Positions 9,301 to 43,495 of a stretch of 44,398 nucleotides of DNA are shown in pieces. The stretch covers positions 1 to 44,398 of IMG/VR virus record IMGVR_UViG_3300001844_000102; one strand, written 5' to 3'. Made by a program: the position numbers and the translations under genes. Position 1 is the stretch's first letter. Each line of letters opens with the position of its first letter. Origin of the DNA: a virus. The notes beneath the pieces were generated by a model. It had not been told where the DNA came from. It saw nothing but the letters and a program-made list of their open reading frames with translations, and made no database searches.

Positions 9301-10638
9301 GAGCGGGTCATGGACGTGGCGCACACTCGGGCCACCCAAAGGCTTGAACAACAAGGGATCACCCCGAACCACCCGGACTGGGAACGTGAATTTGAAGAAT
9401 TGATGTATGGGCCTGAGGACATTTCAGCTCAAGCTCATGAAGAAGCGCTTCGTGGCCTCGCACTTGAACGTCTTAAGGCCGTGGAGCCAGGCAAGACGCT
9501 TCGCGCTTTTACGGTTGATGTGACCCCCAAGATGAAGGAGCGGATCACGACCGAAGGCCAGAAGCTGTTTGGGGCCGCCCCAGCAGTTGGCCTTGGAGCC
9601 ACCCAAGTGCAGCAACCGGTCCAAGAAGAGCCCAAGGAACAGGCCCCGGTCATACAGGATGAACCCCAGGGCTTCGAAAATGGTGGGCGAGTAGGGAAGG
9701 TCAAGGAAGCAGCCGAAGGCCTCCTACGGGTCCTCCACGGCAGTCCTACGCGTGTTCGCCTTGAGATGCTGAACAAGTTTGACATACCAGCCTCCAAGCT
9801 GCGGCGGTTTGAAGATACCTACAGCCCTGAAGACGTGGCCTTAATGCGCCAGTTCTTCAACAAATTTGGCCCTTTAGTCGACCTGAAGATGAATGGCGGA
9901 GGCAAAGTCGACCTTGCTCGTCGTGGCCTTTTGGGGCTCAGAAACAGGATACTGGCCCCGACAGAAAATCTTCCTGCGCGGATTCCAACGTCTCCACCAT
10001 CTCATATTGCTCCTGAAGTCAAGACACCGGATATTGCCTCTCCACTCATTCAAATGGCTCAAAAAGCTGCTGAGACACCAATATCTCGTAGAGATGTTTT
10101 GAAAAAAGCCGTGCAGGCTGCAGTTTCTCAAGCCACTAAAGGCGCAGTGCCCATGGCACTTAAGCAAGCTGTTCTTGAGGCCACTCCAATGAAAGTCTCT
10201 CCTGTAAAGGACGTTGAAAACGCAGTCAAGAATTTATACATAGACCAAATGTTTGAGAATTTTTATGATGATGCTGCACAACATGGTGAAAACTTGTTTG
10301 AGGCATACCAGGCGTTGTTGCCATTTATTTCTCGAAGTTTATCTACGTCCGAGAAAAAAGCAATTGAGAAAGCAGAGGATTTGTTTTATCAATATGGTGA
10401 AGGCGAGATGCCAGATAGAGTGTACGACAAGATCTCTAAAGGCGTAGATATTCTTCATAAAAAGATCTCCGAAGAAGGGGACAACATACCAATCAAAGAC
10501 ATTCTTTCTCCAGATATGTACAAGATGTCACTAGAAGACATGAAAGATTATGGCATCAACATTACGCCTAAAATGGTAGAACAACTCAAAAAGACTGAAT
10601 GGGCTCCTGATGTGTTCCATGATTTTGACAATAACTAA
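6316..10638 (+). CDS. Giant virion protein with polyvalent-type EIQSDWHQ domain (1440 aa)
   Basis: The start is the ATG at 6316, overlapping the preceding stop by 8 bases; the frame is open to 6205 but that part duplicates the previous gene. Visible modules: residues 1-250 of internal-virion type ending GGLIQKYEYGGKVGR; a region from about 400 to 1100 with NTLTHFRVSD, VDEIQSDWHQRARDARK (about 500) and WHELAVKEIMDMAAKEGYD (about 735), closing with VTPKMKERIT...GQKLF; a linker FENGGRVG with LHGSP; then a module (1184-1279) shared with the next gene, including SRRDVLKK at 1257-1264; then an AT-rich tail. From family knowledge, EIQSDWHQ domains occur in very large phage and plasmid polyvalent proteins, some thought to enter the host with the DNA. 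Their biochemical activity is not established to my knowledge. I infer an ejected multidomain protein. Confidence 0.7.
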   Translation: MSDLEKKYEKPSRVKEMRQLTKELEGSDKAAFGIYPSAGKRVKREGSDSAQKAISQAIAGFRSQWSGLDDEGKVGIGKGTPGIYYNTVAIPAIAGVIDEKYAPDFAVAADKKAGQIKEAIRKDMGIDEPKGALEHFAYAGGEMLGQLPVPGALMNKLLSGAKKMGMAGKVAAAPIEYLSPTIDPKAINYGIGTVFGGTLGTVLEPDHKALGGLIQKYEYGGKVGRFRSAVDKAIETLKQKKGTGEQILKQLESTPGVKQEELETRGIKQKLQASPKITQEELLKTAKRNKAPIPERTVLGAGVPEDYTPKIPEDYQKLLDKYGIEPVVNPEDTSMLGFHHVETGEIASGDVLKTLSPEELGIRVDRNGILLGPQEAEDFRNLHRAIDLAERQHQTDLDKYATKFQKFSQPGGENYREVLLHLPEANLQAKNVKKNELHELLGRDLSGITEEEAGRINSRINELINELTDQGKGFRSGHYDVPNTLTHFRVSDRKGPNGEKVLYVDEIQSDWHQRARDARKDYIKKRLEKEGPSIRNQAIEQLRSEIGTVVLNDDNVSRLKKIELRLAKERKAELEKEIPKNYGYRTQEDIYQLIKINDRIEQIKSNGLTLDEIRDYFQPGKIVKSYGGFDKVISFNVGEDSPAFQQAYNKALERAMSVGVDKDAAMQWATKRAQDETKYDWSVTVIEVDPETGNPVRGAKERTHWTSPATDIVKELSKERHQLSDKVPDAPFKDTWHELAVKEIMDMAAKEGYDRVAFSPGIEQVKRYEKIMRQVVDSIQYSPTEDGRLLVEGIKNGRPVFSGTVLDGIFTNGQAEGKTLSEVFGSSIAKQIEEGSSALQDLPGSSARPMPKMSADDLLATHGDEMTENQRSWLERFIKNWEDNVDSTPAGRGIEHEMSTIYETWLDTQKLGRDLPSVRGGSIKGDDLTIGGEGMKSFYDKRLPDYVRKYAGKEFDAKTDYLDIQMTEPQTKKPTERDIQRKMDEIDDADDDELMERVMDVAHTRATQRLEQQGITPNHPDWEREFEELMYGPEDISAQAHEEALRGLALERLKAVEPGKTLRAFTVDVTPKMKERITTEGQKLFGAAPAVGLGATQVQQPVQEEPKEQAPVIQDEPQGFENGGRVGKVKEAAEGLLRVLHGSPTRVRLEMLNKFDIPASKLRRFEDTYSPEDVALMRQFFNKFGPLVDLKMNGGGKVDLARRGLLGLRNRILAPTENLPARIPTSPPSHIAPEVKTPDIASPLIQMAQKAAETPISRRDVLKKAVQAAVSQATKGAVPMALKQAVLEATPMKVSPVKDVENAVKNLYIDQMFENFYDDAAQHGENLFEAYQALLPFISRSLSTSEKKAIEKAEDLFYQYGEGEMPDRVYDKISKGVDILHKKISEEGDNIPIKDILSPDMYKMSLEDMKDYGINITPKMVEQLKKTEWAPDVFHDFDNN
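9865..10152 (+). repeat. Duplicated module, copy 1
   Basis: Encodes FGPLVDLKMNGGGKVDLARR through SRRDVLKKAVQAAVSQATKG. It is homologous to 10687-10992 in the following gene. Over the first 70 bases the DNA is almost identical (the AAGATGAATG(G/A)CGGAGG block), so this is a recent nucleotide-level duplication rather than distant protein homology. It marks the boundary at which the two proteins become different. Confidence 0.9.
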
Positions 10639-10668: not shown

Positions 10669-11751
10669 ATGATGATGAGCACGAACTTCGGCCCCTTGGT
10701 CGGCCTGAAGATGAATGACGGAGGCAAAGTCGACCTTGCTCGTCGCGGTCTGTTAGGACTTAAAAACACAATATTAGGACTTAAAAACACAATAGTCTCT
10801 CAGACTGAAAATCTGCCGACCGTAGTGCCAACCTCCCCTCTTGCTCAGGTGGCTCCAAAACCAGCCCCTGATGTAGTTGCCCCTCTTGCCCAGTTTGTTC
10901 AGAAAGCGGCTGAGACCCCGATGTCTCGCCGCGAGTTTTTGAAGAAGGCTGGGAATGCGGCCCTGAGCCAGGCAGCCAAGGGAATTTTGCCGGCGGCTGC
11001 CAAAGAGGTGGTTGGTGAGGCCATCAAGTCCGCTGCTCCTGCAATCGACGAAGCCGCCGCTGCCAACAAGATCGCGGACTACGTAGCGAAGGTCTGGGGA
11101 AGTTCAAAAGCAGCTCAAAAAGCCTTCAAGCAAGCGCACGGAAAAGACTTTGCGGAGTACTACAACACGAGCGACCTGAGTGAAATTCCGCATTCTCAAC
11201 TCTGGGCTGATGTCGAAGCTGGCAATCCGGAAAACTTATTGAATGTCACGAAGGCCATTGGTCTTGATTTAGAGACAGTCGCCAAAAGAACGGGGCTGCC
11301 GCTCGAAGCCGTCAAGAAGATTGCGGGCAAAGACGGAAGTCTTTTAGACGAAATTACAGGAAACTCAAGCAAGAGGGCATGGCTTGAGCAGATCTTGGAA
11401 GACGGTCGCCCAAAAGAAGCCAGGAGAGAGACTTCGTACCTAGACCTGTTCGATGATGAGTTCATGGACGAAACAGCCAAAAATGCCTTGAAGGAACTCG
11501 GACACAATGCGGATGAAATGGACCTGGTGGACTATGCAGACCAGGCAATCCAAAAACGATGGAGAGAGATTGAGCGTGGAGAAAGGGACCCGGCGCAAGT
11601 AACCCCGCTGCAGCGCGGTATTGCAAACAAGATTGTCGACAACGATACGTTGGACAGCGTCTGGGAGCAGGCGACAGACATGGGGGGTGACAGCCACATC
11701 CAGGGCATCTTTGAGTACCTTGAGAAGCACGGATGGACCCCTCCGCGATGA
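10669..11751 (+). CDS. Paralogous virion-associated protein with internal SRREFLK motif
   Basis: 360 residues. Three consecutive ATG codons (10669, 10672, 10675) follow AGGAG at 10661, so the exact start is uncertain by two codons; 10672 or 10675 has better spacing. Residues 7-108 duplicate a module of the preceding protein (GGKVDLARRGLLGL, QKAAETPMSRREFLKKAG). Residues 86-92 give a perfect twin-arginine consensus SRREFLK followed by an Ala-rich stretch, but it is internal. The remaining 250 residues are acidic and helical, unlike the preceding protein's tail; they include a helical segment at about 190-225 (LNVTKAIGLDLETVAKRTGLP) that could be a helix-turn-helix-like fold. No family was recognised. 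It is the last gene of the late region before regulatory element A. I infer a virion or ejected protein sharing a constant module with its neighbour. Confidence 0.65.
   Translation: MMMSTNFGPLVGLKMNDGGKVDLARRGLLGLKNTILGLKNTIVSQTENLPTVVPTSPLAQVAPKPAPDVVAPLAQFVQKAAETPMSRREFLKKAGNAALSQAAKGILPAAAKEVVGEAIKSAAPAIDEAAAANKIADYVAKVWGSSKAAQKAFKQAHGKDFAEYYNTSDLSEIPHSQLWADVEAGNPENLLNVTKAIGLDLETVAKRTGLPLEAVKKIAGKDGSLLDEITGNSSKRAWLEQILEDGRPKEARRETSYLDLFDDEFMDETAKNALKELGHNADEMDLVDYADQAIQKRWREIERGERDPAQVTPLQRGIANKIVDNDTLDSVWEQATDMGGDSHIQGIFEYLEKHGWTPPR
10687..10992 (+). repeat. Duplicated module, copy 2
   Basis: Counterpart of 9865-10152. It encodes FGPLVGLKMNDGGKVDLARR through SRREFLKKAGNAALSQAAKG. It differs mainly by an extra 21-bp tandem duplication at 10753-10794. 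Confidence 0.9.
10753..10794 (+). repeat. Perfect 21-bp tandem duplication
   Basis: Two identical 21-bp units (10753-10773 and 10774-10794) encode LGLKNTI twice. Absent from the homologous position of copy 1, where the protein reads LGLRNRILAP, so the duplication arose after the module was copied. Confidence 0.95.
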
Positions 11752-11764
11752 ATAAGCAAAAACG

Positions 11765-11911
11765 CTATAGATCAGTTTTTAGACGAAAAAAGAGTGTATC
11801 AGTACAACCCATTTTGGTCTCGCGTGATCTAGAGAACGAGCGAACGATAGCTCCTACAGTTCTTTTTTGTACAAGTACACTCTTTTATGGCTCTAAAATC
11901 ACTCTATAGGG
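11765..11911 (+). promoter_or_regulatory. Composite regulatory element A (upstream of early operon)
   Basis: In a 310-base gap without genes, the order is CTATAGAT (11765-11772), a perfect dyad TGTA-N4-TACA (11795-11806), a central ATCTAGA with ACGAGCGAACGATA, a second dyad TGTA-N4-TACA (11868-11879), and CTATAGGG (11904-11911). The two dyads sit in extended inverted repeats of the form GAGTGTA-N4-TACAA. The same arrangement with gaps of 22, 60-61 and 24 bases occurs as element B at 27879-28024. The dyads look like operators. CTATAGGG with upstream GGCTCTAAAA resembles the core of T7-type RNA polymerase promoters. Function is inferred. Confidence 0.75.
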
Positions 11912-11967
11912 TTTTTGGGCCCCCAGGAGGCTGGTAAAAGTCCCTGCCTAAAATTATTTGCAAAAAA

Positions 11968-11998
11968 CTGCGCAGCTCGCGGTTTTACGCGCTAGAAT
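11968..11998 (+). promoter_or_regulatory. Sigma70-like promoter of early operon
   Basis: CTGCGC (11968-11973), 19-base spacer, TAGAAT (11993-11998), preceded by an A-rich ATTTGCAAAAAA stretch. The region from about 11935 to 12052, including the downstream CCATGCACAGCAAT leader and GAAAGAAGAAAGG ribosome-binding site, is matched by 25664-25770. That conservation supports a functional host-type promoter and leader. The predicted transcript would begin near the leader ATGCAC. Confidence 0.6.
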
Positions 11999-12061
11999 AG
12001 CATCCATGCACAGCAATCCCGCTGGCACAAACAAACAGAAAGAAGAAAGGTAATATATATC

Positions 12062-13048
12062 ATGGCTCATGAAGTTGAAACGATGGCTTATGCCAATGAG
12101 ACCCCTTGGCACGGCCTTGGTACCCCTGTCGCTGACAACTTGACGCCCGCACAGATGCTGAATGCAGCTGGACTTAACTGGCAAGTCAAGAAGAAAGCCT
12201 TGGTCGTAGACGAACTCGACCACGTGTTGAACAGCCACTACGCATTGGTGCGCGACACAGACAACAAGATTCTTGGCGTCTGCGGCAGCGACTACACGCC
12301 CACCCAAAACCACGACGTCTTTGAGTTCTTTAGCAAGTTCTGCAAAGCCGGCGACATGAAGATGGAGACTGCCGGTTCTCTTCACGGCGGCAAGCGCGTT
12401 TGGGGCCTTGCCAAGATCAATGGCGGCTTCATGTTGGGCGGCAAAGACGAAGTTCAGGGCTACATCTTGCTTGACAACCCGCACATCTGGGGCCGCAGCC
12501 TGCAGATCATGTTCACGCCAATCCGCGTGGTCTGCAATAACACGCTGACGGCCGCACTTCGCGATAATAAAAACAAAGAGAACACATTTCGCATGTCACA
12601 CGATCGCGCGTTCGACGACGAGATCAAGCAGACAGCAGCTGAAAAAGTTGGCCTTGCAATGAAGTCACTTGACATCTTCAAGAAGCAGGCAGAGTTCTTG
12701 TCTAAGAAGCGTGCCAAAGACCAGCAAGTCATGGAGTTCTTCGCAAAGCTTGTCAACCCAGAACAGTATGCTGCTGCCCTTGATGCTTCTGAAGATGGCA
12801 GCGTCAATCGTTCAGACCTTGGCCGCACGGTCAACCGCCTGATCGACATCGTGCACACCCAGCCAGGCGCTGATCTGAAGACTTCAGCCGGAACCTGGTG
12901 GGGCGCATTCAACGCCGTGACGTACTACTATGACCACGTCGCTGGAACTGACCAAGACAAGCGTCTGACAAGCGCGTGGTTTGGCTCGGCAGCCACCCGC
13001 AAACGCCAAGCACTTGACCTAGCCGTCAAGTTTGCTGAAGCCGCCTAA
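12062..13048 (+). CDS. DUF932-family protein (phage/plasmid-like)
   Basis: 328 residues, ATG at 12062 preceded by GAAAGAAGAAAGG and an AT-rich spacer. N-terminal signature ETPWHGLG followed by LTPAQMLNAAGLNW, a central beta-rich region with GGKRVWGLAKI, and the PIRVVCNNTLTAAL segment, are typical of DUF932 / phage-plasmid-like proteins (family knowledge; usual length 280-380). The molecular function of this family is not settled; members often lie near replication or recombination genes. Here it is the first gene of the long rightward early operon, directly behind element A and a sigma70-like promoter, so early high-level expression is likely. A stable UUCG hairpin follows the stop. Confidence 0.9.
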   Translation: MAHEVETMAYANETPWHGLGTPVADNLTPAQMLNAAGLNWQVKKKALVVDELDHVLNSHYALVRDTDNKILGVCGSDYTPTQNHDVFEFFSKFCKAGDMKMETAGSLHGGKRVWGLAKINGGFMLGGKDEVQGYILLDNPHIWGRSLQIMFTPIRVVCNNTLTAALRDNKNKENTFRMSHDRAFDDEIKQTAAEKVGLAMKSLDIFKKQAEFLSKKRAKDQQVMEFFAKLVNPEQYAAALDASEDGSVNRSDLGRTVNRLIDIVHTQPGADLKTSAGTWWGAFNAVTYYYDHVAGTDQDKRLTSAWFGSAATRKRQALDLAVKFAEAA

Positions 13049-20562: not shown

Positions 20563-22086
20563 ATGCTTGCACAAAGATTCATGGCGTTATTTTCCGGGCA
20601 CACAGGCGCCTATGGAACCTATGACATCGATGGCAAGAATACCGGCCTCAAAGTTCAGGGGACAGCAGTCACAAAACGAGCAGCAGTAACAGAGCAGCTT
20701 TGGGACGCGCACCTAGCAGGAACAAAGGGCATCGGTATCGTGCCGATCAGGGAGGATAACACATGCCTCTTTGGTGCGATTGACATCGACGAATACAAGA
20801 ATTTTGATCTGAAAGACGCGGTTGATGCTTGCGCAAAGGCCAAGGCACCTGTCGTCGTCTGCCGCAGCAAATCTGGCGGCGCCCACATCTACATGTTTTT
20901 CTCGGAATCGATTCCGGCAGCAGACGTTAAGAGGAAACTCGCTGAGCTGGCCAGCGTGATCGGGCATCCAAGCTGCGAGATCTTTCCAAAGCAAGACCAA
21001 GTGCTCTCCGAACGTGGCGACGTTGGCAACTGGATCAACATGCCCTATTTCGAGGGCGATCAAACCTCCCGCTACGGGGTTGCTGAAAACGGCGGCCCGA
21101 TGCCGATAGAAGAATTCCTGACCTTTGCCGAAGGTCTCAAGATGACCCGGGCCAACTTCGTGCGCCTGCGGTTTGCAGAAGCCAAGAACAAGAAGCGAGC
21201 ATTCAAGGATGCGCCTCCATGCCTTGAAAAGCTGGCACAGACTGGCTTCCCTGAAGGGACACGCAACAACGGCCTGTTCAATCTATGCGTCTTGGCCCGC
21301 AAGATGCGGCCCGATGACTGGCAGCCACTGGTCAAGCTGTTGAACATCGAGGTCATGGATCCACCACTGCCTGAGTCTGAGGTCATGGGGGTCATCCAGT
21401 CGATGCAGAACAGCGACTACCAGTACACGTGCAGCAGGTCGCCACTGCGACCTAACTGCAATGCTGGCAGGTGCCGCATGCGCAAATTCGGAGTGGGCAT
21501 CCAGCAAGGAGCCCCACGGCTGTCTAGCCTTAGCAAGTATAACACAGATCCTCCGATCTGGTTTCTCGACATGGACAATGGCATGCGCCTGTCGCTGTCA
21601 ACGGAAGACCTGCAAAACCAGTCAGGCTTCCAGAAGCGCTGCATGGAGGCCATGAACTACATGCCGCCAAGGATGAACTTGACGCAGTGGAATCAAATGA
21701 TCCAGGCGCTGCTGCAAGATGTGGTCATCATCGAGGCACCTGAGGACGCAAGCCCCAAGGGCCAGTTCATCGACTTGCTGGAACGCTTCTGCACCGGCAA
21801 GGCGCAGGCAAAGCACTTGGATGAAATCTTGCTTGGCAAGCCATTCCATGATCGCGACGACAACCGCCACCTGTTCAGGCTGGCTGATTTCATCAACTTC
21901 CTTGACAAGCAGAGGTTCAAGGAGTTCAAGCTGAATCAGATCAGCTCGGCCATCCGTGACTACGGCGGCGAGACTCATACTTACAAGTTGCATGGCAAGC
22001 GGGCCACGGTCTGGTCTGTTCCTGCGTTCTCATTCCAAGACAAAGGCCATCAGACACCGGACTTCAGCAGTGGAAGCCTCATCTAA
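20563..22086 (+). CDS. AEP-superfamily DNA primase
   Basis: 507 residues, ATG 20563 with AGAAGAAGAAGAG upstream. The catalytic motifs of archaeo-eukaryotic primases are visible: D74-x-D76 (GAIDIDEY), the S-x-x-H-like motif with H108 (KSGGAHIYMFF) and the third motif CEIFPKQDQ (about 138-146). A Cys cluster follows at about 288-304 (YTCSRSPLRPNCNAGRCRMR), probably a zinc or metal site. The C-terminal 200 residues are helical with no helicase motifs, so unwinding must come from the adjacent helicase genes. The motif spacing resembles TOTE-type AEP primases in phages and mobile elements (family knowledge). It makes primers for the family-A polymerase. Confidence 0.85.
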   Translation: MLAQRFMALFSGHTGAYGTYDIDGKNTGLKVQGTAVTKRAAVTEQLWDAHLAGTKGIGIVPIREDNTCLFGAIDIDEYKNFDLKDAVDACAKAKAPVVVCRSKSGGAHIYMFFSESIPAADVKRKLAELASVIGHPSCEIFPKQDQVLSERGDVGNWINMPYFEGDQTSRYGVAENGGPMPIEEFLTFAEGLKMTRANFVRLRFAEAKNKKRAFKDAPPCLEKLAQTGFPEGTRNNGLFNLCVLARKMRPDDWQPLVKLLNIEVMDPPLPESEVMGVIQSMQNSDYQYTCSRSPLRPNCNAGRCRMRKFGVGIQQGAPRLSSLSKYNTDPPIWFLDMDNGMRLSLSTEDLQNQSGFQKRCMEAMNYMPPRMNLTQWNQMIQALLQDVVIIEAPEDASPKGQFIDLLERFCTGKAQAKHLDEILLGKPFHDRDDNRHLFRLADFINFLDKQRFKEFKLNQISSAIRDYGGETHTYKLHGKRATVWSVPAFSFQDKGHQTPDFSSGSLI

Positions 22087-25489: not shown

Positions 25490-25695
25490 ATAAGTTTATG
25501 GCATGGGCTTTTAAGTATCAGGCAGGACCTGAAAAGGGCCCAAAGATGGCCCGGGGTCACTAGGTGAGCCCCAGGGATGTTGAAATGCCAAAAGAATAGG
25601 AAACCATGGACCATGCTCAGAAAACCCCTCTGGGGACCTCTAGGAGGACCGACTTTGGCTAGTATAAGTCCCTGCGCAAATAATTTGCAAAAAAG
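25490..25695. other. Non-coding interval upstream of second early promoter
   Basis: About 200 bases between the leftward promoter and the rightward promoter at 25696. Small GC-rich dyads (CCCCTCTGGGG and CCTCTAGGAGG, near 25625-25646) occupy the place held by CCAGGAGGCTGG upstream of the first early promoter. No ORF with a ribosome-binding site was found. Confidence 0.4.
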
Positions 25696-25726
25696 TTGCG
25701 CGCAGTGCGCGGTTGCGCAGTAGAAT
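25696..25726 (+). promoter_or_regulatory. Second copy of early promoter and leader
   Basis: TTGCGC (25696-25701), 19-base spacer, TAGAAT (25721-25726), preceded by ATTTGCAAAAAA. The surroundings from 25664 to 25770 (AGTCCCTGC, CATGCACGGCAAT leader, GAAAGAAGAAAGG ribosome-binding site) match the early promoter region at 11937-12052. It drives the accessory operon from 25779. Confidence 0.65.
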
Positions 25727-25778
25727 GCAACCATGCACGGCAATTCCGCCGGGCTAAGAAAGAAGAAAGGAAATCATC

Positions 25779-26531
25779 ATGAGAATCGTTTGGACAAAAG
25801 ATGAGAAGCGCGCGCTGCAAGATTGCATGATTGACATCTGCTATGTCACTCCGACCATGAGCAACAAAGGCTTGCTGCAGCATGCTCAAGAGGAGGTCAT
25901 ACCTTACGAGCGCCGTCAAAAGATCACCGACCAAAAGGTGTTCACGTACAAGAGCATGATCAACGAGGCGCGCGCCAAGGCTGAAGCGCATCGCAACAAG
26001 GTTGCAGCTGAGCCAGTCATCAAGCCGTTGCCCGTGCAGCCAGCTCCTAAGCCAGTCAAGAAGCTTGACACACTGGGCGAAGTCTTTGAGCTGCTCGTCG
26101 ATGCGGTGGCTGACCGGATTGTGGCCAAACTTGAGGCGCGTTCACAAGCAAAGCCAGCTGCCGTTGAAGAACCAGTTGAAGAGGAACCGCTGGCCTTCGG
26201 TCGCGGGGGGCTTGACGAGTTAGAGAAGCTATCGATCCGCAGCAAGGAAGCCAAGGTCCGTCGGCCCACGGCCCTCATCGTCGGCTTACTTGGCGTGCAG
26301 ATGGAGTGCATCAAGCAATCGAACCCTGGCGTGGACTTCACCTTCGTGACGGCTGAGCAAGCCCTAAGTCGCTATACATTCAACAAGGACCATACGATCC
26401 TCATGACCAAGTTCATCAACCACTCGGTGCAGGCAAAGTATCGCAAGCATCCGAACCTTCACTTCGTCAACGGCGGCGTCAGCGAACTCAAGACGCTGCT
26501 GCATGGAATTTTTAACAAGGAGACGGTATGA
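25779..26531 (+). CDS. Phage hypothetical protein with Rossmann-like C-terminal domain
   Basis: 250 residues, ATG 25779 behind GAAAGAAGAAAGG. Residues 1-65 are a charged helical domain (VWTKDEKRALQDCMI...YKSMINEARAKAEA) that may be a DNA-binding or regulatory fold. A Pro/Lys-rich linker and an acidic segment (EEPVEEEPLAFG) follow. Residues 165-250 form an alpha/beta domain: RRPTALIVGLLGVQMECIK, then DHTILMTKFINHSVQAKY and LHFVNGGVSELKTLL. The ...KFI-H...GG-S-L pattern recalls DUF2325-like domains, a tentative comparison. First gene of the accessory operon. Function unknown. Confidence 0.75.
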   Translation: MRIVWTKDEKRALQDCMIDICYVTPTMSNKGLLQHAQEEVIPYERRQKITDQKVFTYKSMINEARAKAEAHRNKVAAEPVIKPLPVQPAPKPVKKLDTLGEVFELLVDAVADRIVAKLEARSQAKPAAVEEPVEEEPLAFGRGGLDELEKLSIRSKEAKVRRPTALIVGLLGVQMECIKQSNPGVDFTFVTAEQALSRYTFNKDHTILMTKFINHSVQAKYRKHPNLHFVNGGVSELKTLLHGIFNKETV

Positions 26532-27039: not shown

Positions 27040-27067
27040 CTGCGCAAGTCCCAGGAAGGACTATAAT
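27040..27067 (+). promoter_or_regulatory. Candidate promoter for repeat-bearing transcript
   Basis: CTGCGC (27040-27045), 16-base spacer, consensus TATAAT (27062-27067). A transcript starting about 27074 would end at the terminator at 27177. AGGAAGGA (27053-27060) also forms a ribosome-binding site for the first MNHRE minigene at 27066 on longer transcripts, so the TATAAT could be fortuitous. Confidence 0.45.
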
Positions 27068-27124
27068 GAACCACCGGGAATAACAATGAATCACCGGGAA
27101 TAACAATGAATCACCGGGAATAAC
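27065..27124 (+). repeat. Three tandem 20-bp repeats, each an MNHRE minigene
   Basis: Units at 27065-27084, 27085-27104 and 27105-27124 (consensus AATGAATCACCGGGAATAAC; the first has AAC for AAT). Every unit contains ATG-AA(C/T)-CAC-CGG-GAA-TAA, a complete five-codon ORF MNHRE, and the only difference between units is synonymous. The 20-base period makes the minigenes occupy different frames. Stop and next start are separated by two bases, so reinitiation is possible. A strong ribosome-binding site precedes only the first. Confidence 0.95.
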
Positions 27125-27177
27125 AGTTGCCGGTATTGCCAATAGACTTTACGGGGCCTCATCAGCCCCGTTTTTTA
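27074..27177 (+). ncRNA. Candidate small RNA with repeated segment
   Basis: If the TATAAT at 27062 is used, a roughly 100-nucleotide RNA would carry the repeats (two complete and part of the first) and end in a strong intrinsic terminator. The repeated CACCGGGAATAAC could act as a multi-copy pairing site. This is inference from promoter, repeat and terminator spacing. Confidence 0.35.
27152..27177 (+). terminator. Strong intrinsic terminator
   Basis: CGGGGC - loop CTCATCA - GCCCCG followed by TTTTTTATT. It ends the rightward early/accessory transcription and coincides with the stop codon (27175-27177) of the leftward gene, so it insulates converging transcription units. Confidence 0.9.
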
Positions 27178-27615
27178 TTCCTCGTGGTCACGAACCTTGC
27201 AGCCAAGGTCGGTCGGGTCCATCTTGAGGTAACCGAAGACGGCCTTACGACGCTGCTCGGACTTAGCCGGGCCGCAATTGGGGCAACCGTGTCCGCACAC
27301 CGAGCAAAAAGCCGGAGGACTCTCGAAGGCACGGATGACGCGCTTCTTGTGCTCTTCACGGCAATGCTCAAGCCACTTGGCCCTCCAGCCACGGATGGCG
27401 ATCAACTCATCGATCTTATCAATCACGTGCTGCGTGATGGGACGACCCTTGACCGCGTTGAAGAACGTGCCGCGGCTAAGATCCAGGCCGTCTGCTGCCT
27501 CCATGTCGTACAAGCGACTGATGTTCGGCTGCCCTGTGCCATACTCGCTGGCCCAGACGATGATCTTGACTGTGTCGAGGTCAAGGGGAGATGTTGCTTC
27601 AATGGGACGGCTCAT
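27175..27615 (-). CDS. Probable DNA-binding regulator with Cys4 motif (146 aa)
   Basis: Leftward, ATG 27615 with AAGGAG eight bases upstream and ATGA overlap with the gene before it. Residues about 30-75 (NISRLYDMEAADGLDLSRGTFFNAVKGRPITQHVIDKID) look like a Cro/XRE-type helix-turn-helix: LSRGTFFNAVKG fits the recognition-helix and N(L/V)xxG pattern. Near residue 105 a CxxC-x3-CxxC cluster (FCSVCGHGCPNCG) should bind zinc. Encoded on the opposite strand between early and late operons and next to element B, it is the best candidate for the protein that reads the TGTA-N4-TACA dyads. Family not identified; the HTH call is by eye. Confidence 0.65.
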   Translation of the reverse strand: MSRPIEATSPLDLDTVKIIVWASEYGTGQPNISRLYDMEAADGLDLSRGTFFNAVKGRPITQHVIDKIDELIAIRGWRAKWLEHCREEHKKRVIRAFESPPAFCSVCGHGCPNCGPAKSEQRRKAVFGYLKMDPTDLGCKVRDHEE

Positions 27616-27788
27616 GATGTTTTCTCCTTAATTTCCTGCTCCACGACCCGCGAAAGACGGGCCAAGTTGCTCATGTAGGCGATTGCTTGCTTGTTCTCAT
27701 TCAACCCTGACTCAACGAGGCTAGCTGCCTGCATGAATCGAAGGCCACTGATGAGGCTCTTGATCTGGTTCAAGTCTTCTAAAGTCAT
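27612..27788 (-). CDS. Small helical protein (58 aa), first gene of leftward operon
   Basis: Leftward ATG 27788 with a GAAAGAAGAAAG ribosome-binding site identical in style to the early genes; the stop overlaps the next start (ATGA, 27612-27615). The product (MTLEDLNQIKSLISGLRFMQ...RLSRVVEQEIKEKTS) is short, helical and charged, with no known family. Tight coupling to the putative regulator suggests a partner or co-regulator. Codon pattern and ribosome-binding site make it a convincing gene despite its length. Confidence 0.7.
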   Translation of the reverse strand: MTLEDLNQIKSLISGLRFMQAASLVESGLNENKQAIAYMSNLARLSRVVEQEIKEKTS

Positions 27789-27820: not shown

Positions 27821-27826
27821 ATTATA
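27821..27826 (-). promoter_or_regulatory. -10 box of leftward regulator operon
   Basis: Read leftward, a consensus TATAAT lies 33 bases before the ATG at 27788. No good -35 hexamer is at 16-18 bases (best TAGCAT at 18), so an activator or an upstream element may be needed. Element B begins about 50 bases further upstream. Confidence 0.5.
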
Positions 27827-27878
27827 CAGCAATTTGTGCAAGTTATGCTATGTCCGGGGAGCCAGGGGATCAAAAAAG

Positions 27879-28024
27879 CTATAGATGAGTTTTTTAGCCA
27901 AAACAGAGTGTATTGATACAACCTTTTTTCAGACGCGCAATCTAGAAGACGAGCGAGCGATATTAGAAATAGTTTTTAATTGTATTGATACACTCTGTTT
28001 TGGTCTAGAAAACATACTATAGGG
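27879..28024 (+). promoter_or_regulatory. Composite regulatory element B (upstream of late operon)
   Basis: Second copy of element A: CTATAGAT (27879-27886), TGTA-N4-TACA (27909-27920), central ATCTAGA with ACGAGCGAGCGATA, TGTA-N4-TACA (27981-27992), CTATAGGG (28017-28024). Here the inverted repeat is even longer: CAAAACAGAGTGTAT followed by ATACAA after two bases, repeated in reverse. It lies between the leftward regulator operon and the terminase gene, so it may control both directions. Confidence 0.75.
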
Positions 28025-28100
28025 AATTTGGGCTCGCCAGTGTACGTGATTGCGCAGTCCGCTCTAAAATAGAGGGAACTTAGAATCAAGGAGCACTGCA
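28025..28100 (+). promoter_or_regulatory. Late-operon leader with possible sigma70 boxes
   Basis: Contains TTGCGC (28050-28055), TAAAAT (28065-28070), TAGAAT (28081-28086) and the AAGGAG ribosome-binding site (28088-28093). The boxes are not at ideal spacing, so a host promoter here is uncertain; CTATAGGG of element B may instead mark the late transcription start. Confidence 0.35.
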
Positions 28101-32841: not shown

Positions 32842-33261
32842 ATGCTATTAGAAAAACCCATGTCTTTCACCTATGACTCCCTTGAGGAGGCATTTCCCCC
32901 AGTCGATTGTGGCCATTTGCCGCTCGGCTCGCGCGTGATCGTTCAGATCCGTAAGGCCAAAAGCCAGACTGCTGGCGGCATCTACATCCCGGAAGAGGCT
33001 CGAAAGACCGAGGCCAGCAATACCCAGGTCGCCAAAGTGGTGGCCGTTGGCGCATTGGCCTACAAGAATCGGAACACCATGGAGCCTTGGCCCGAAGGCG
33101 CGTGGTGTGAAGTTGGCACCTATGCCCGTGTGCCTAAGTACGGAGGTGACCGCTGGGCCGTGAAGTCCGGCGACGAGGAGATAGAATTCGTGATGTTCAA
33201 CGACCTGGACATGCTTGCCAAGGTCACCGGAAATCCGACTGCGATTCGGGCTTTTATCTAA
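32842..33261 (+). CDS. GroES-like co-chaperonin
   Basis: 139 residues, ATG 32842 (GGAGAAG upstream); an alternative in-frame ATG at 32860. LGSRVIVQIRKAKSQTAGGIYIPEEARK contains the Cpn10 beta-strand and mobile loop with GG-hydrophobic tripeptide (GGIYI), followed by VAKVVAVG. The C-terminal strand VMFNDLDMLAKV matches the family. Bacterial GroES is about 95 residues, so this has extra N-terminal and internal segments. By analogy with T4 gp31, it may replace host GroES to fold the capsid protein. Located between portal and scaffold, consistent with that. Confidence 0.88.
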   Translation: MLLEKPMSFTYDSLEEAFPPVDCGHLPLGSRVIVQIRKAKSQTAGGIYIPEEARKTEASNTQVAKVVAVGALAYKNRNTMEPWPEGAWCEVGTYARVPKYGGDRWAVKSGDEEIEFVMFNDLDMLAKVTGNPTAIRAFI

Positions 33262-41045: not shown

Positions 41046-43495
41046 CAGTACCATCGAACCTCGTACCGACGTCGATCACTCAGCTGCCGGTGGCCCCGAA
41101 CCCGACGTCGTCGGCGACCATGGTCTGCGTTATTGGCGGCATCACTTATCAGGTCCCCTTCATCGACCTGCAATCGACCGTCTCCGTCCCGGCTTCTCGT
41201 GAAATCAATACGGGCGGCGGCCTTCAAGGCGGTGGAGACTTATCCCAAAACCGTACCCTGAGCATCGCGACAGGTGGCGTGACCAGCGACAAGCTGGCCG
41301 TCAGCGGCGTCACTGCCAATACGTATGGTTCAGGGACCATGATTCCTGTTTTGACTATCAGCAATAAGGGCCTGGTCACGAACGCGACTGAGGTCGCCCT
41401 GGTCATTTCTGGATATGTTCCTGATACCCGCCAGATCATTGCTGGAACCGGTTTGACCGGAGGCGGCAACCTGCAAGCCAATCGGACGCTAACGGTTGGC
41501 TTTTCAGCTTTAACGCCTTCAGCCCTTGGATCTGCTTCGGCTGGCAGCTCAGATACGTCTGCCCGCGGTGACCACGTTCACCCGGCCCTAAACTTTGCAA
41601 ACCTGACTGAATATACCGGCCTGCTACCATTGACGCGTGGCGGAACAGGCAAGCAGATCAACACCCTCACGGGTGGGGCAGTGTGGTATTCTGACGGAAG
41701 CAACGGTTTTTTGCAGACGGCTCAAGGCTCTGTCGGTCAAGTTTTGGTCTCGAATGGATCTTCCGCGCCGTCCTGGGGCTCTGCGCTGATCGTCTCAAAC
41801 CAGCCAGCTAACTACGTCTACGCTGGCCCAACTTCTGGAGCAGCTGCCCCCACCGCCTTCCGCCTACTCGTCAACGACGACATTCCGTCGACCTTGACTG
41901 GCAAGACCATGAGCGGGGCTTTAAACACGTTCAGCGGCATCGCAAACGCGTCCCTGGTCAATTCTTCTGTGACTTTCAACGGTGTCACGGTGGCTTTGGG
42001 GGCTTCTGGAACGATTACCGCTGCTGCTACAAACGCCTTGACGATCGGGACCGGACTGTCTGGCACCAGCTATGATGGCTCGTCTCCGGTCACCATTGCC
42101 ATTGATTCGACTGTTGCCACCTTGACAGGAAGCCAGACGTTGACCAACAAGTCAATGTCTGGCGCAAGCAACACCTTCACAAACATCCCCAACTCAGCCC
42201 TGTCCAACTACACCATCTCTGGTGTGGCGTTGGGTGGAAACCTGTTTGGGTTGACGATTGGAACAGGGCTGACAGGTGGCAGTTATAACGGTTCGGGTGC
42301 GGTCACCGTGGCGATCGATTCCACGGTTGCCACCCTGACAGACACTCAAACCCTGACGAACAAGTCAATCAGCGGGTCAACCAACACGTTGAGCAATATT
42401 CCAAACTCGGCGCTGACTAACTCGTTGATTACACTGGGCACGACCAACATTGCGTTGGGCGGTACATCTTTGACGCCAGCAGGTCTGACATCGGTGACGG
42501 TTACGCAAGACCCTACATCAGCCTTACAACTGGCGACCAAGCAGTATGTGGACAACATTGCGTCTACTGGCTTGTATTACCATGCGCCAGTTCAAGCTGC
42601 GACTACGCAAAGCCTTGCCGCTCAGACGGGTGGCACGGTCACCTACAACAATGGCACGGCTGGTGTTGGTGCGACCATCACTCTATCTGTGGCTTTGACC
42701 ACATTGGATGGGTACAGCCTTGCTAACACAAACCGCATCTTGGTTAAAGACGAGGTCAACCAAGCCTACAATGGTGTTTATACATGGGCGACTGGCGGCA
42801 CTGTCCTGACCCGCTCAACTGACACCGATTCCTATGGCCCCGGCCCCGGCGACCTGAGCGAGAACGATTACTTCTTCGTGCAGAATGGCACGGTGAACAA
42901 GGGCAACTCGTACATCTGCGCAACGCAGGGCACGATCACCTTTGGCACAACGGCCATCACTTTCTCGCAGTTCAGCACCTCGCAGGTCTACTCTGCTGGT
43001 ACTGGACTGACGCTGACCAACACGACTTTCAGCATCACCAACACAGCGGTTACTGCTACAAGCTATGGCTCAGCAACCCAGGTAGGCACGTTTACAGTCA
43101 ATGCACAAGGTCAACTGACTGCCGCCGCAAACGTCACAGTCACCCCGGCTGTTGGCTCGATCACGGGCCTTGGCACTGGGGTTGCAACGGCTCTGGCCGT
43201 CAACACCGGATCTGCTGGGGCAGTCGTGCTGTTCAATGGAGCGCTTGGAACACCGTCGTCAGGCACCTTGACAAACGCGACAGGCTTGCCTTTGACTTCT
43301 GGCGTGACTGGCGTCTTGCCTGTTGCAAACGGCGGCACAAACGCCACAGCAACACCAACAGCGGGCGCCGTGGCGTATGGCGACGGTACAAAATACGCAT
43401 TCAGTGCAGCTGGCACATCTGGCCAATTTTTAATCTCAGGGGGTACCGGTTCACCCACCTGGACTGACACTATCCCTGGAGGAACCTACGCATGA
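41042..43495 (+). CDS. Tail fibre protein with internal repeats (817 aa)
   Basis: ATGA overlap with the previous gene. The Thr/Gly/Ser-rich beta-helical fibre sequence has GTGLTGGGNLQANRTLTV-type units, LPLTRGGTGK and LPVANGGTN boxes. Two clear long repeats (about 42043-42240 and 42256-42450) contain TVAIDSTVATLT...TLTNKS...NIPNSAL. LATKQYVDN and DEVNQAYNGVYTWATGG introduce a distinct domain around residue 500-640. The C-terminus (AFSAAGTSGQFLISGGTGSP) is a typical fibre end. It binds the host surface; no depolymerase motif recognised. Confidence 0.85.
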   Translation: MTVPSNLVPTSITQLPVAPNPTSSATMVCVIGGITYQVPFIDLQSTVSVPASREINTGGGLQGGGDLSQNRTLSIATGGVTSDKLAVSGVTANTYGSGTMIPVLTISNKGLVTNATEVALVISGYVPDTRQIIAGTGLTGGGNLQANRTLTVGFSALTPSALGSASAGSSDTSARGDHVHPALNFANLTEYTGLLPLTRGGTGKQINTLTGGAVWYSDGSNGFLQTAQGSVGQVLVSNGSSAPSWGSALIVSNQPANYVYAGPTSGAAAPTAFRLLVNDDIPSTLTGKTMSGALNTFSGIANASLVNSSVTFNGVTVALGASGTITAAATNALTIGTGLSGTSYDGSSPVTIAIDSTVATLTGSQTLTNKSMSGASNTFTNIPNSALSNYTISGVALGGNLFGLTIGTGLTGGSYNGSGAVTVAIDSTVATLTDTQTLTNKSISGSTNTLSNIPNSALTNSLITLGTTNIALGGTSLTPAGLTSVTVTQDPTSALQLATKQYVDNIASTGLYYHAPVQAATTQSLAAQTGGTVTYNNGTAGVGATITLSVALTTLDGYSLANTNRILVKDEVNQAYNGVYTWATGGTVLTRSTDTDSYGPGPGDLSENDYFFVQNGTVNKGNSYICATQGTITFGTTAITFSQFSTSQVYSAGTGLTLTNTTFSITNTAVTATSYGSATQVGTFTVNAQGQLTAAANVTVTPAVGSITGLGTGVATALAVNTGSAGAVVLFNGALGTPSSGTLTNATGLPLTSGVTGVLPVANGGTNATATPTAGAVAYGDGTKYAFSAAGTSGQFLISGGTGSPTWTDTIPGGTYA
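42043..42450 (+). repeat. Tandem protein-level duplication in tail fibre
   Basis: Two adjacent units of about 200 bases encode TGL(S/T)G(T/G)SY(D/N)GS...AIDSTVATLT...QTLTNKS(M/I)SG...N(I)PNSAL. The nucleotide sequences differ at many synonymous sites, so the duplication is older than the 20- to 27-bp repeats elsewhere in the window. Confidence 0.85.

Follow-up and report, generated by a model that had tools for sequence, protein, structure and literature searches.

The stretch of virus DNA analysed here (the window, 44,398 nucleotides of IMG/VR record IMGVR_UViG_3300001844_000102) carries two copies of one element, named A and B, at the starts of the early and the late transcription blocks. 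The question raised by this arrangement is what a sequence duplicated at both operon boundaries does for the phage. A preliminary description of the same DNA had placed a composite regulatory element at two positions, and both copies are present there. The reading favoured here, with moderate confidence, is that A and B form a paired operator/enhancer that is read by a small phage protein, p146, and that coordinates the early and late operons.

Anatomy of the duplicated element

Each copy is an imperfect palindrome of about 160 bp in which two mirror-image arms of about 50 bp surround a core (Table 1). Read from the outer to the inner edge, an arm consists of CAAAAA(C/T)(G/C)CTATAG, a spacer, TTTTTAG, CCAWAACAGAGTGTAT and the partner half ATACA, an architecture that can be written as CAAAAA..CTATAG..TTTTTAG..AACAGAGTGTAT..ATACA. 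The CTATAG box faces outward at both ends of the element, and in all four arms of the window its distance from the dyad is exactly 30 bases. When the left arm is compared with the reverse complement of the right arm, 31-32 of 43 positions match, whereas Markov-resampled sequence yields 25 at most, and the 50-position arm profile that gives the scores in Table 1 reaches at most -9 in shuffled genomes. The core between the arms is non-palindromic and contains CGARCGAACGA, which is conserved in 64 elements. Copies A and B are 74% identical over about 170 bp (E 1.5e-9) and rank second among the dispersed repeats of the window in a self-BLAST comparison.

Table 1. Coordinates of the two elements and of the surrounding features in the window
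Feature	Coordinates	Strand	Remarks
Element A, whole palindrome	11757..11917	.	Flanked by final late gene (10669-11751) and by DUF932 gene (12062-13048) of early operon
Element A, left arm, CAAAAACGCTATAG...GAGTGTATCAGTACA	11757..11806	+	Arm profile score 60.9
Element A, core box CGAGCGAACGATA	11837..11849	+	
Element A, right arm, inverted	11868..11917	-	Arm profile score 67.1
-10-like TAGAAT of early promoter, downstream of A	11993..11998	+	-35 not clear; from alignment of A-downstream regions; missed by generic promoter scan
Intrinsic-terminator-like hairpin closing the early operon ahead of the convergent p146 gene	27151..27171	+	Total of such hairpins found no higher than in shuffles
p146, conserved 146-aa protein, proposed element binder	27175..27615	-	Predicted helical N-terminal domain (HTH-like) and C-x2-C-x3-C-x2-C zinc-type motif
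58-aa ORF upstream of p146, same leftward unit	27612..27788	-	Variable or absent in relatives
-10-like TATAAT of leftward p146 unit	27821..27826	-	From alignment of B-upstream regions
Element B, whole palindrome	27871..28030	.	Between divergent p146 and late transcription
Element B, left arm	27871..27920	+	Arm profile score 72.3
Element B, core box CGAGCGAGCGATA	27950..27962	+	
Element B, right arm, inverted	27981..28030	-	Arm profile score 59.8
Late-promoter-like TGTACG-N18-TAAAAT	28041..28070	+	From alignment of B-downstream regions

The duplication of a composite element, as first described, is borne out by these comparisons, but its extent is not: the sequence is a longer inverted repeat rather than a one-way string of boxes ending in CTATAGGG. 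Across the window TGTA-N4-TACA occurs five times against 0.16 expected, with four of the five inside A and B and the fifth (position 690) within an ORF and lacking a surrounding arm, and CTATAGGG occurs only at 11904 and 28017, that is, in the two elements. The statement that the N4 differs in every dyad was mistaken, as both dyads of B read TTGA (those of A read TCAG and CAAG). A DNA search with element B against isolated phages gave no match, and no description of the element was found in the literature.

Conservation in related phages

In relatives with enough sequence there are exactly two copies of the element, one per early/late operon boundary. Scored with the 50-position profile, the window and relatives G002-G005 and G008 have exactly four arms; all four are also present in G006, G007 and G009, where some lower scores are due to one-base length changes. 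The partial record G011 has only the two arms of B, and the outgroup G010 has none. Element B precedes the terminase small subunit, as in the window, in viral contigs related by the large terminase subunit gene (TerL), and element A likewise keeps its place in those related by DUF932 (at least 81% identity). The complete relative G007, which has a 123-bp terminal repeat, is in essence made up of an early and a late operon, each running in one direction and each with an element at its start. This terminal repeat and the 55-57 kb length of relatives imply that the window is a partial genome from which about 12 kb is missing.

The gene content of the window includes a phage-encoded Cpn10 (GroES-like) co-chaperonin in the head gene region (32842-33261) and a primase with a TOTE-type archaeo-eukaryotic primase domain (20563-22086) that adjoins UvrD-like and SNF2-like helicases. 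Repeated coding stretches occur within structural-gene ORFs (9862-9946 and 10684-10768; 42038-42156 and 42251-42369). The late operon of G007 encodes a beta-ketoacyl-synthase-like protein (L101:10934-12064), and the annotation of MW202545 also lists a 3-oxoacyl-ACP synthase.

Position, box order and approximate spacing are kept in all carriers examined, which supports the earlier proposal that DNA and protein assemble at two sites, one heading the early block and one the late block. Perfection of the dyads, part of the same proposal, is not kept: the inner site reads GAGAGGATCAATAC and similar in relatives, so that strict TGTA-N4-TACA symmetry is not the conserved property. Nor is the outer box conserved as the unit CTATAGGG, since relatives show CTATAGCG, CTATAGGG or CTATATAGGG and the constant part is CTATAG.

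The variation of the outer box bears on the suggestion that a phage-specific RNA polymerase uses the arms as promoters that point outward, with a T7-like CTATAGGG start. The window copies do resemble T7-family promoters in this string, and CTATAG stands at a fixed distance from the inner site. However, the GGG varies among relatives, the box is symmetrical and faces outward at both ends, including ends that have no following gene (the left arm of A is conserved though no leftward gene is seen there), and the elements lack the conserved directional sequence of about 23 bp starting with GG or GGG that characterizes T7-like promoters. In agreement with the preliminary description, Pfam and PHROG scans of most window proteins and of the main additional G007 proteins found no RNA polymerase, and a search for PF00940 in 12 related records, among them nearly complete relatives, gave no match, as did its control set. 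Separate conserved sigma70-like -10 sequences also count against promoters of this kind. A T7-like promoter was rejected on the symmetry of the box, the variable GGG and the polymerase not found in the scans, and promoters of a phage-specific polymerase are regarded as exceedingly improbable.

The sigma70-like -10 sequences are conserved downstream of A, downstream of B and upstream of p146, about 45-85 bp beyond the arms on those sides where genes follow. In relatives, the early-operon sequence reads TAGAAT or TATAAT, and the promoter-like consensus of the late operon is TTTACG-N(17-18)-TAnAAT. A generic promoter scan did not single these sequences out, and their support therefore lies in their conservation. 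Since the promoter-like sequences lie outside the arms, the element is more likely to be upstream control DNA than a start site, and at a distance of 45-85 bp from the -10 sequences any effect of the element would act at a distance.

Other repeated or symmetrical sequences were noted around these operons. A second duplicated non-coding stretch (11929-12022 and 25657-25749; 78% identity) is found just past A and before the ORF at 25779-26531, and looks like a duplicated early promoter region. A dyad of the form CTRGTA-N-TGTACYAG, possibly the site of another regulator, is located at about 11932-11953 (CTGGTAAAAGTCC..) and is conserved to the right of A in relatives, and to the right of B in L025 and L023. 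Immediately ahead of the early-operon terminator is a tandem repeat of about 20 bp (AATGAATCACCGGGAATAAC; 27065-27125).

The orientation of the core is a variable feature of the element. Relative to the arms, the core of B is inverted in at least 10 elements (L006, L025, L033, L036, L039, L041, L058, L060, L062 and G007), with at least two changes of orientation on the p146 tree, and in G007 and L036 the cores of A and B are opposite; all copies of A have the core in a single orientation. Core orientation is thus not fixed and is apparently dispensable for function, which fits a protein complex assembled on double-stranded DNA. Ordinary recombination or template switching between the arms could be the source of the inversions. 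They could alternatively be the product of a site-specific recombination or hairpin-resolution site, with which the long inverted repeats would also agree, but the inversions are few and explainable without such a site, every copy of A shares one orientation, and tyrosine recombinases are absent from 11 records in a search that detected 14 of 14 controls, a result that led to rejection of a recombinase site. Likewise, no recombinase was found among the Pfam-scanned proteins, serine recombinases and transposases having been sought in selected proteins. A role in recombination therefore has very little probability.

Core orientation is also relevant to a function at the RNA level, whereby a transcribed long hairpin would be a terminator, an RNase III site or an antitermination signal between operons. 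Such a function would agree with arms that are able to pair and that co-vary, with the position of the element directly after the last late gene and with a U-run-like TTTTTG at the right end. Against it, arm mismatches show no excess of G-U (94, compared with 112 A-C), the two core orientations would yield unrelated RNA loops, B sits between divergent units, and no Rfam match was found. The lack of a G-U preference, together with the inverted core in several relatives, argues for double-stranded DNA over RNA structure. An RNA hairpin, terminator or riboswitch was rejected on the Rfam, G-U and core-orientation results, and an RNA-level role is considered very unlikely.

p146 and the co-variation of the arms

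The candidate partner of the elements is p146. In every relative whose sequence extends far enough, it lies to the left of B and is transcribed leftward, and in many it comes directly after the leftward promoter-like sequence. It was found at every element-B locus with enough sequence, down to 34-35% identity (L060/L062), and p146 and the element are both absent from L064 and L065. The C-x2-C-x3-C-x2-C motif is invariant across p146 relatives, and the N-terminal helical domain, predicted alone, has a pLDDT of 92. Foldseek searches with the full-length protein and with the N-terminal domain placed weak XRE-type helix-turn-helix (HTH) matches on top, the best PDB match being VanUg (probability 0.25, E 1.2). 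These fold matches are not significant, and the HTH assignment is accordingly a suggestion. The protein has no Pfam or PHROG match, and no relatives of it were found among 84,980 bacterial and archaeal genomes, 50,697 phages and 72,556 plasmids; in a p146 profile search of other contigs, the control gave no match.

A single protein reading all four arms would be expected to make them change in concert, and this is what is observed. Arm likeness is 0.715 within an element and 0.664 between elements (0/5000), and the likeness of A to B is 0.744 within a genome compared with 0.692 in shuffled pairs (1/20000). An exception is G009/L117, in which A and B differ at one arm position.

The p146 gene is 16-18 kb from element A, and A was for this reason used for a sharper test of co-variation. 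In 10 genomes the similarity of A arms correlates with that of p146 (r 0.72, p 2e-4; Mantel permutations, in which shared ancestry is not fully corrected). The partial correlation given the A-adjacent DUF932 protein is 0.64 (p 0.001), and that of DUF932 given p146 is not significant. With an eleventh genome added, the p146 correlation holds in leave-one-out tests (p at most 0.016); with both G007 and L036 dropped, which are recombinant genomes carrying the other p146 type, the partial r is 0.41 and significance is lost (p 0.08). Of 67 ORF queries that each have matches in at least 8 genomes, p146 scores highest (0.69), followed by its own antisense frame (0.64) and the remainder at 0.57 or less, including DUF932 (0.44) and TerL (0.28). 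A case in point is G007, which shares 91% identity with the window in DUF932 and 71% in p146, and in which the arms of A and B have both switched to ACAGAGAG. Judged by these comparisons of sequence, the element evolves in step with p146. Because the A-arm sequence tracks the divergence of p146 better than that of any other tested protein, the neighbour of A included, p146 is the leading candidate for a factor that acts on A and B alike.

Proposed function and comparison with known systems

A sister lineage, represented by G010 (L232/L233; TerL 72% identical), has neither p146 nor the element, and carries a duplicated element of its own that is unrelated in sequence (111 bp, 79% identity; contig positions 15783-15893 and 35725-35835). 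Its two copies occupy the same boundaries as A and B, one ahead of the terminase and the other where the late genes give way to the early ones, and comprise [AT][GA]CTAATA repeats at 10-bp spacing and outer ACACGTG and CACGTGT boxes that face each other; one copy also has a perfect DnaA box. The twin-element design thus persists while the sequence differs. In Caulobacter phage RW and MW202545 (TerL 58% and 48%), no duplicated boundary element was found.

The G010 element enters into the main rival explanation, in which the elements are replication origins, or origins and operators together. The arms and the repeat core would bind an initiator (p146 or another protein), the DNA would open, and replication would start at one or both copies. 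Points in its favour are the long palindrome beside AT-rich tracts, the folding of element B as single-stranded DNA (hairpin energy z = -7.3), a core built of CGAA repeats, the 10-bp-phased repeats, AT-rich run and DnaA box of the outgroup element, and a cumulative GC skew that turns near B in several relatives. Yet the turn near B is a maximum rather than a minimum and there is no consistent turn at A, and GC skew was set aside as an origin locator because its result is ambiguous. The perfect DnaA box TTATCCACA occurs nowhere in the p146-lineage genomes examined, the arms are inverted, the features of an iteron/DnaA-type origin appear only in the unrelated element of the outgroup, and no copy is found away from a promoter-bearing start of an operon. 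An origin function, alone or combined with that of an operator, is possible but doubtful.

The paired operator/enhancer remains the preferred reading. The elements have dyad-symmetric sites repeated near promoter-like sequences, and p146, the putative regulator, is encoded beside one of them, with its transcription directed away. Both mirror-image arms of each copy would be bound by a dimeric phage protein, most likely p146, and this protein would control, by activation or repression, the three promoter-like sequences outside the arms, namely those of the leftward p146 unit (autoregulation), the rightward late operon at B and the rightward early operon at A. The outcome would be coordination of the only two large transcription blocks of the phage, and A and B may be bridged across the early region. 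That the early and late blocks share an operator is not enough on its own to account for a temporal switch. A more elaborate and rather unlikely version is a two-site nucleoprotein switch, in which p146 would bridge the palindromes and loop the early (~16-21 kb) and late (~36-39 kb) blocks separately, the elements would act as insulator, operator and possibly origin, and sister lineages would have exchanged the two elements, together with the protein that binds them, for an unrelated set.

The closest parallels are found in two known systems. In phage lambda, the OL and OR operators are bound by CI and Cro, and CI mediates looping between OL and OR. Shared with lambda are two multi-site operator copies with dyad sites at separate promoters of one phage, possible bridging, and the location of one copy beside the divergent gene of a proposed HTH-type regulator. 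Unlike lambda, one copy precedes the late operon, each copy is a single long palindrome with a non-palindromic core, the sites are 45-85 bp outside the -10 sequences, p146 has a zinc-type motif and no Pfam match to the CI/Cro family, and there is neither an integrase nor evidence of lysogeny. Baculovirus hrs are arrays of ~30-bp palindromes whose half-sites are bound by IE1, and they serve as both enhancer and origin. They resemble the present elements in that a few long imperfect palindromes per viral genome are acted on, here by proposal, by one viral protein at half-sites, but virus and protein are unrelated and the phage has two copies only of a single ~160-bp palindrome with a core in place of arrays.

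For an uncultivated phage group seen only in metagenomes, the elements and p146 would make up a compact and testable control circuit of one small protein, two DNA elements and two main operons. With matched changes in p146 and in an element far from its gene, this is a natural system in which protein-DNA co-evolution can be read. The unrelated duplicate of G010 suggests that what is selected is the twin arrangement itself, with one element at each operon boundary.
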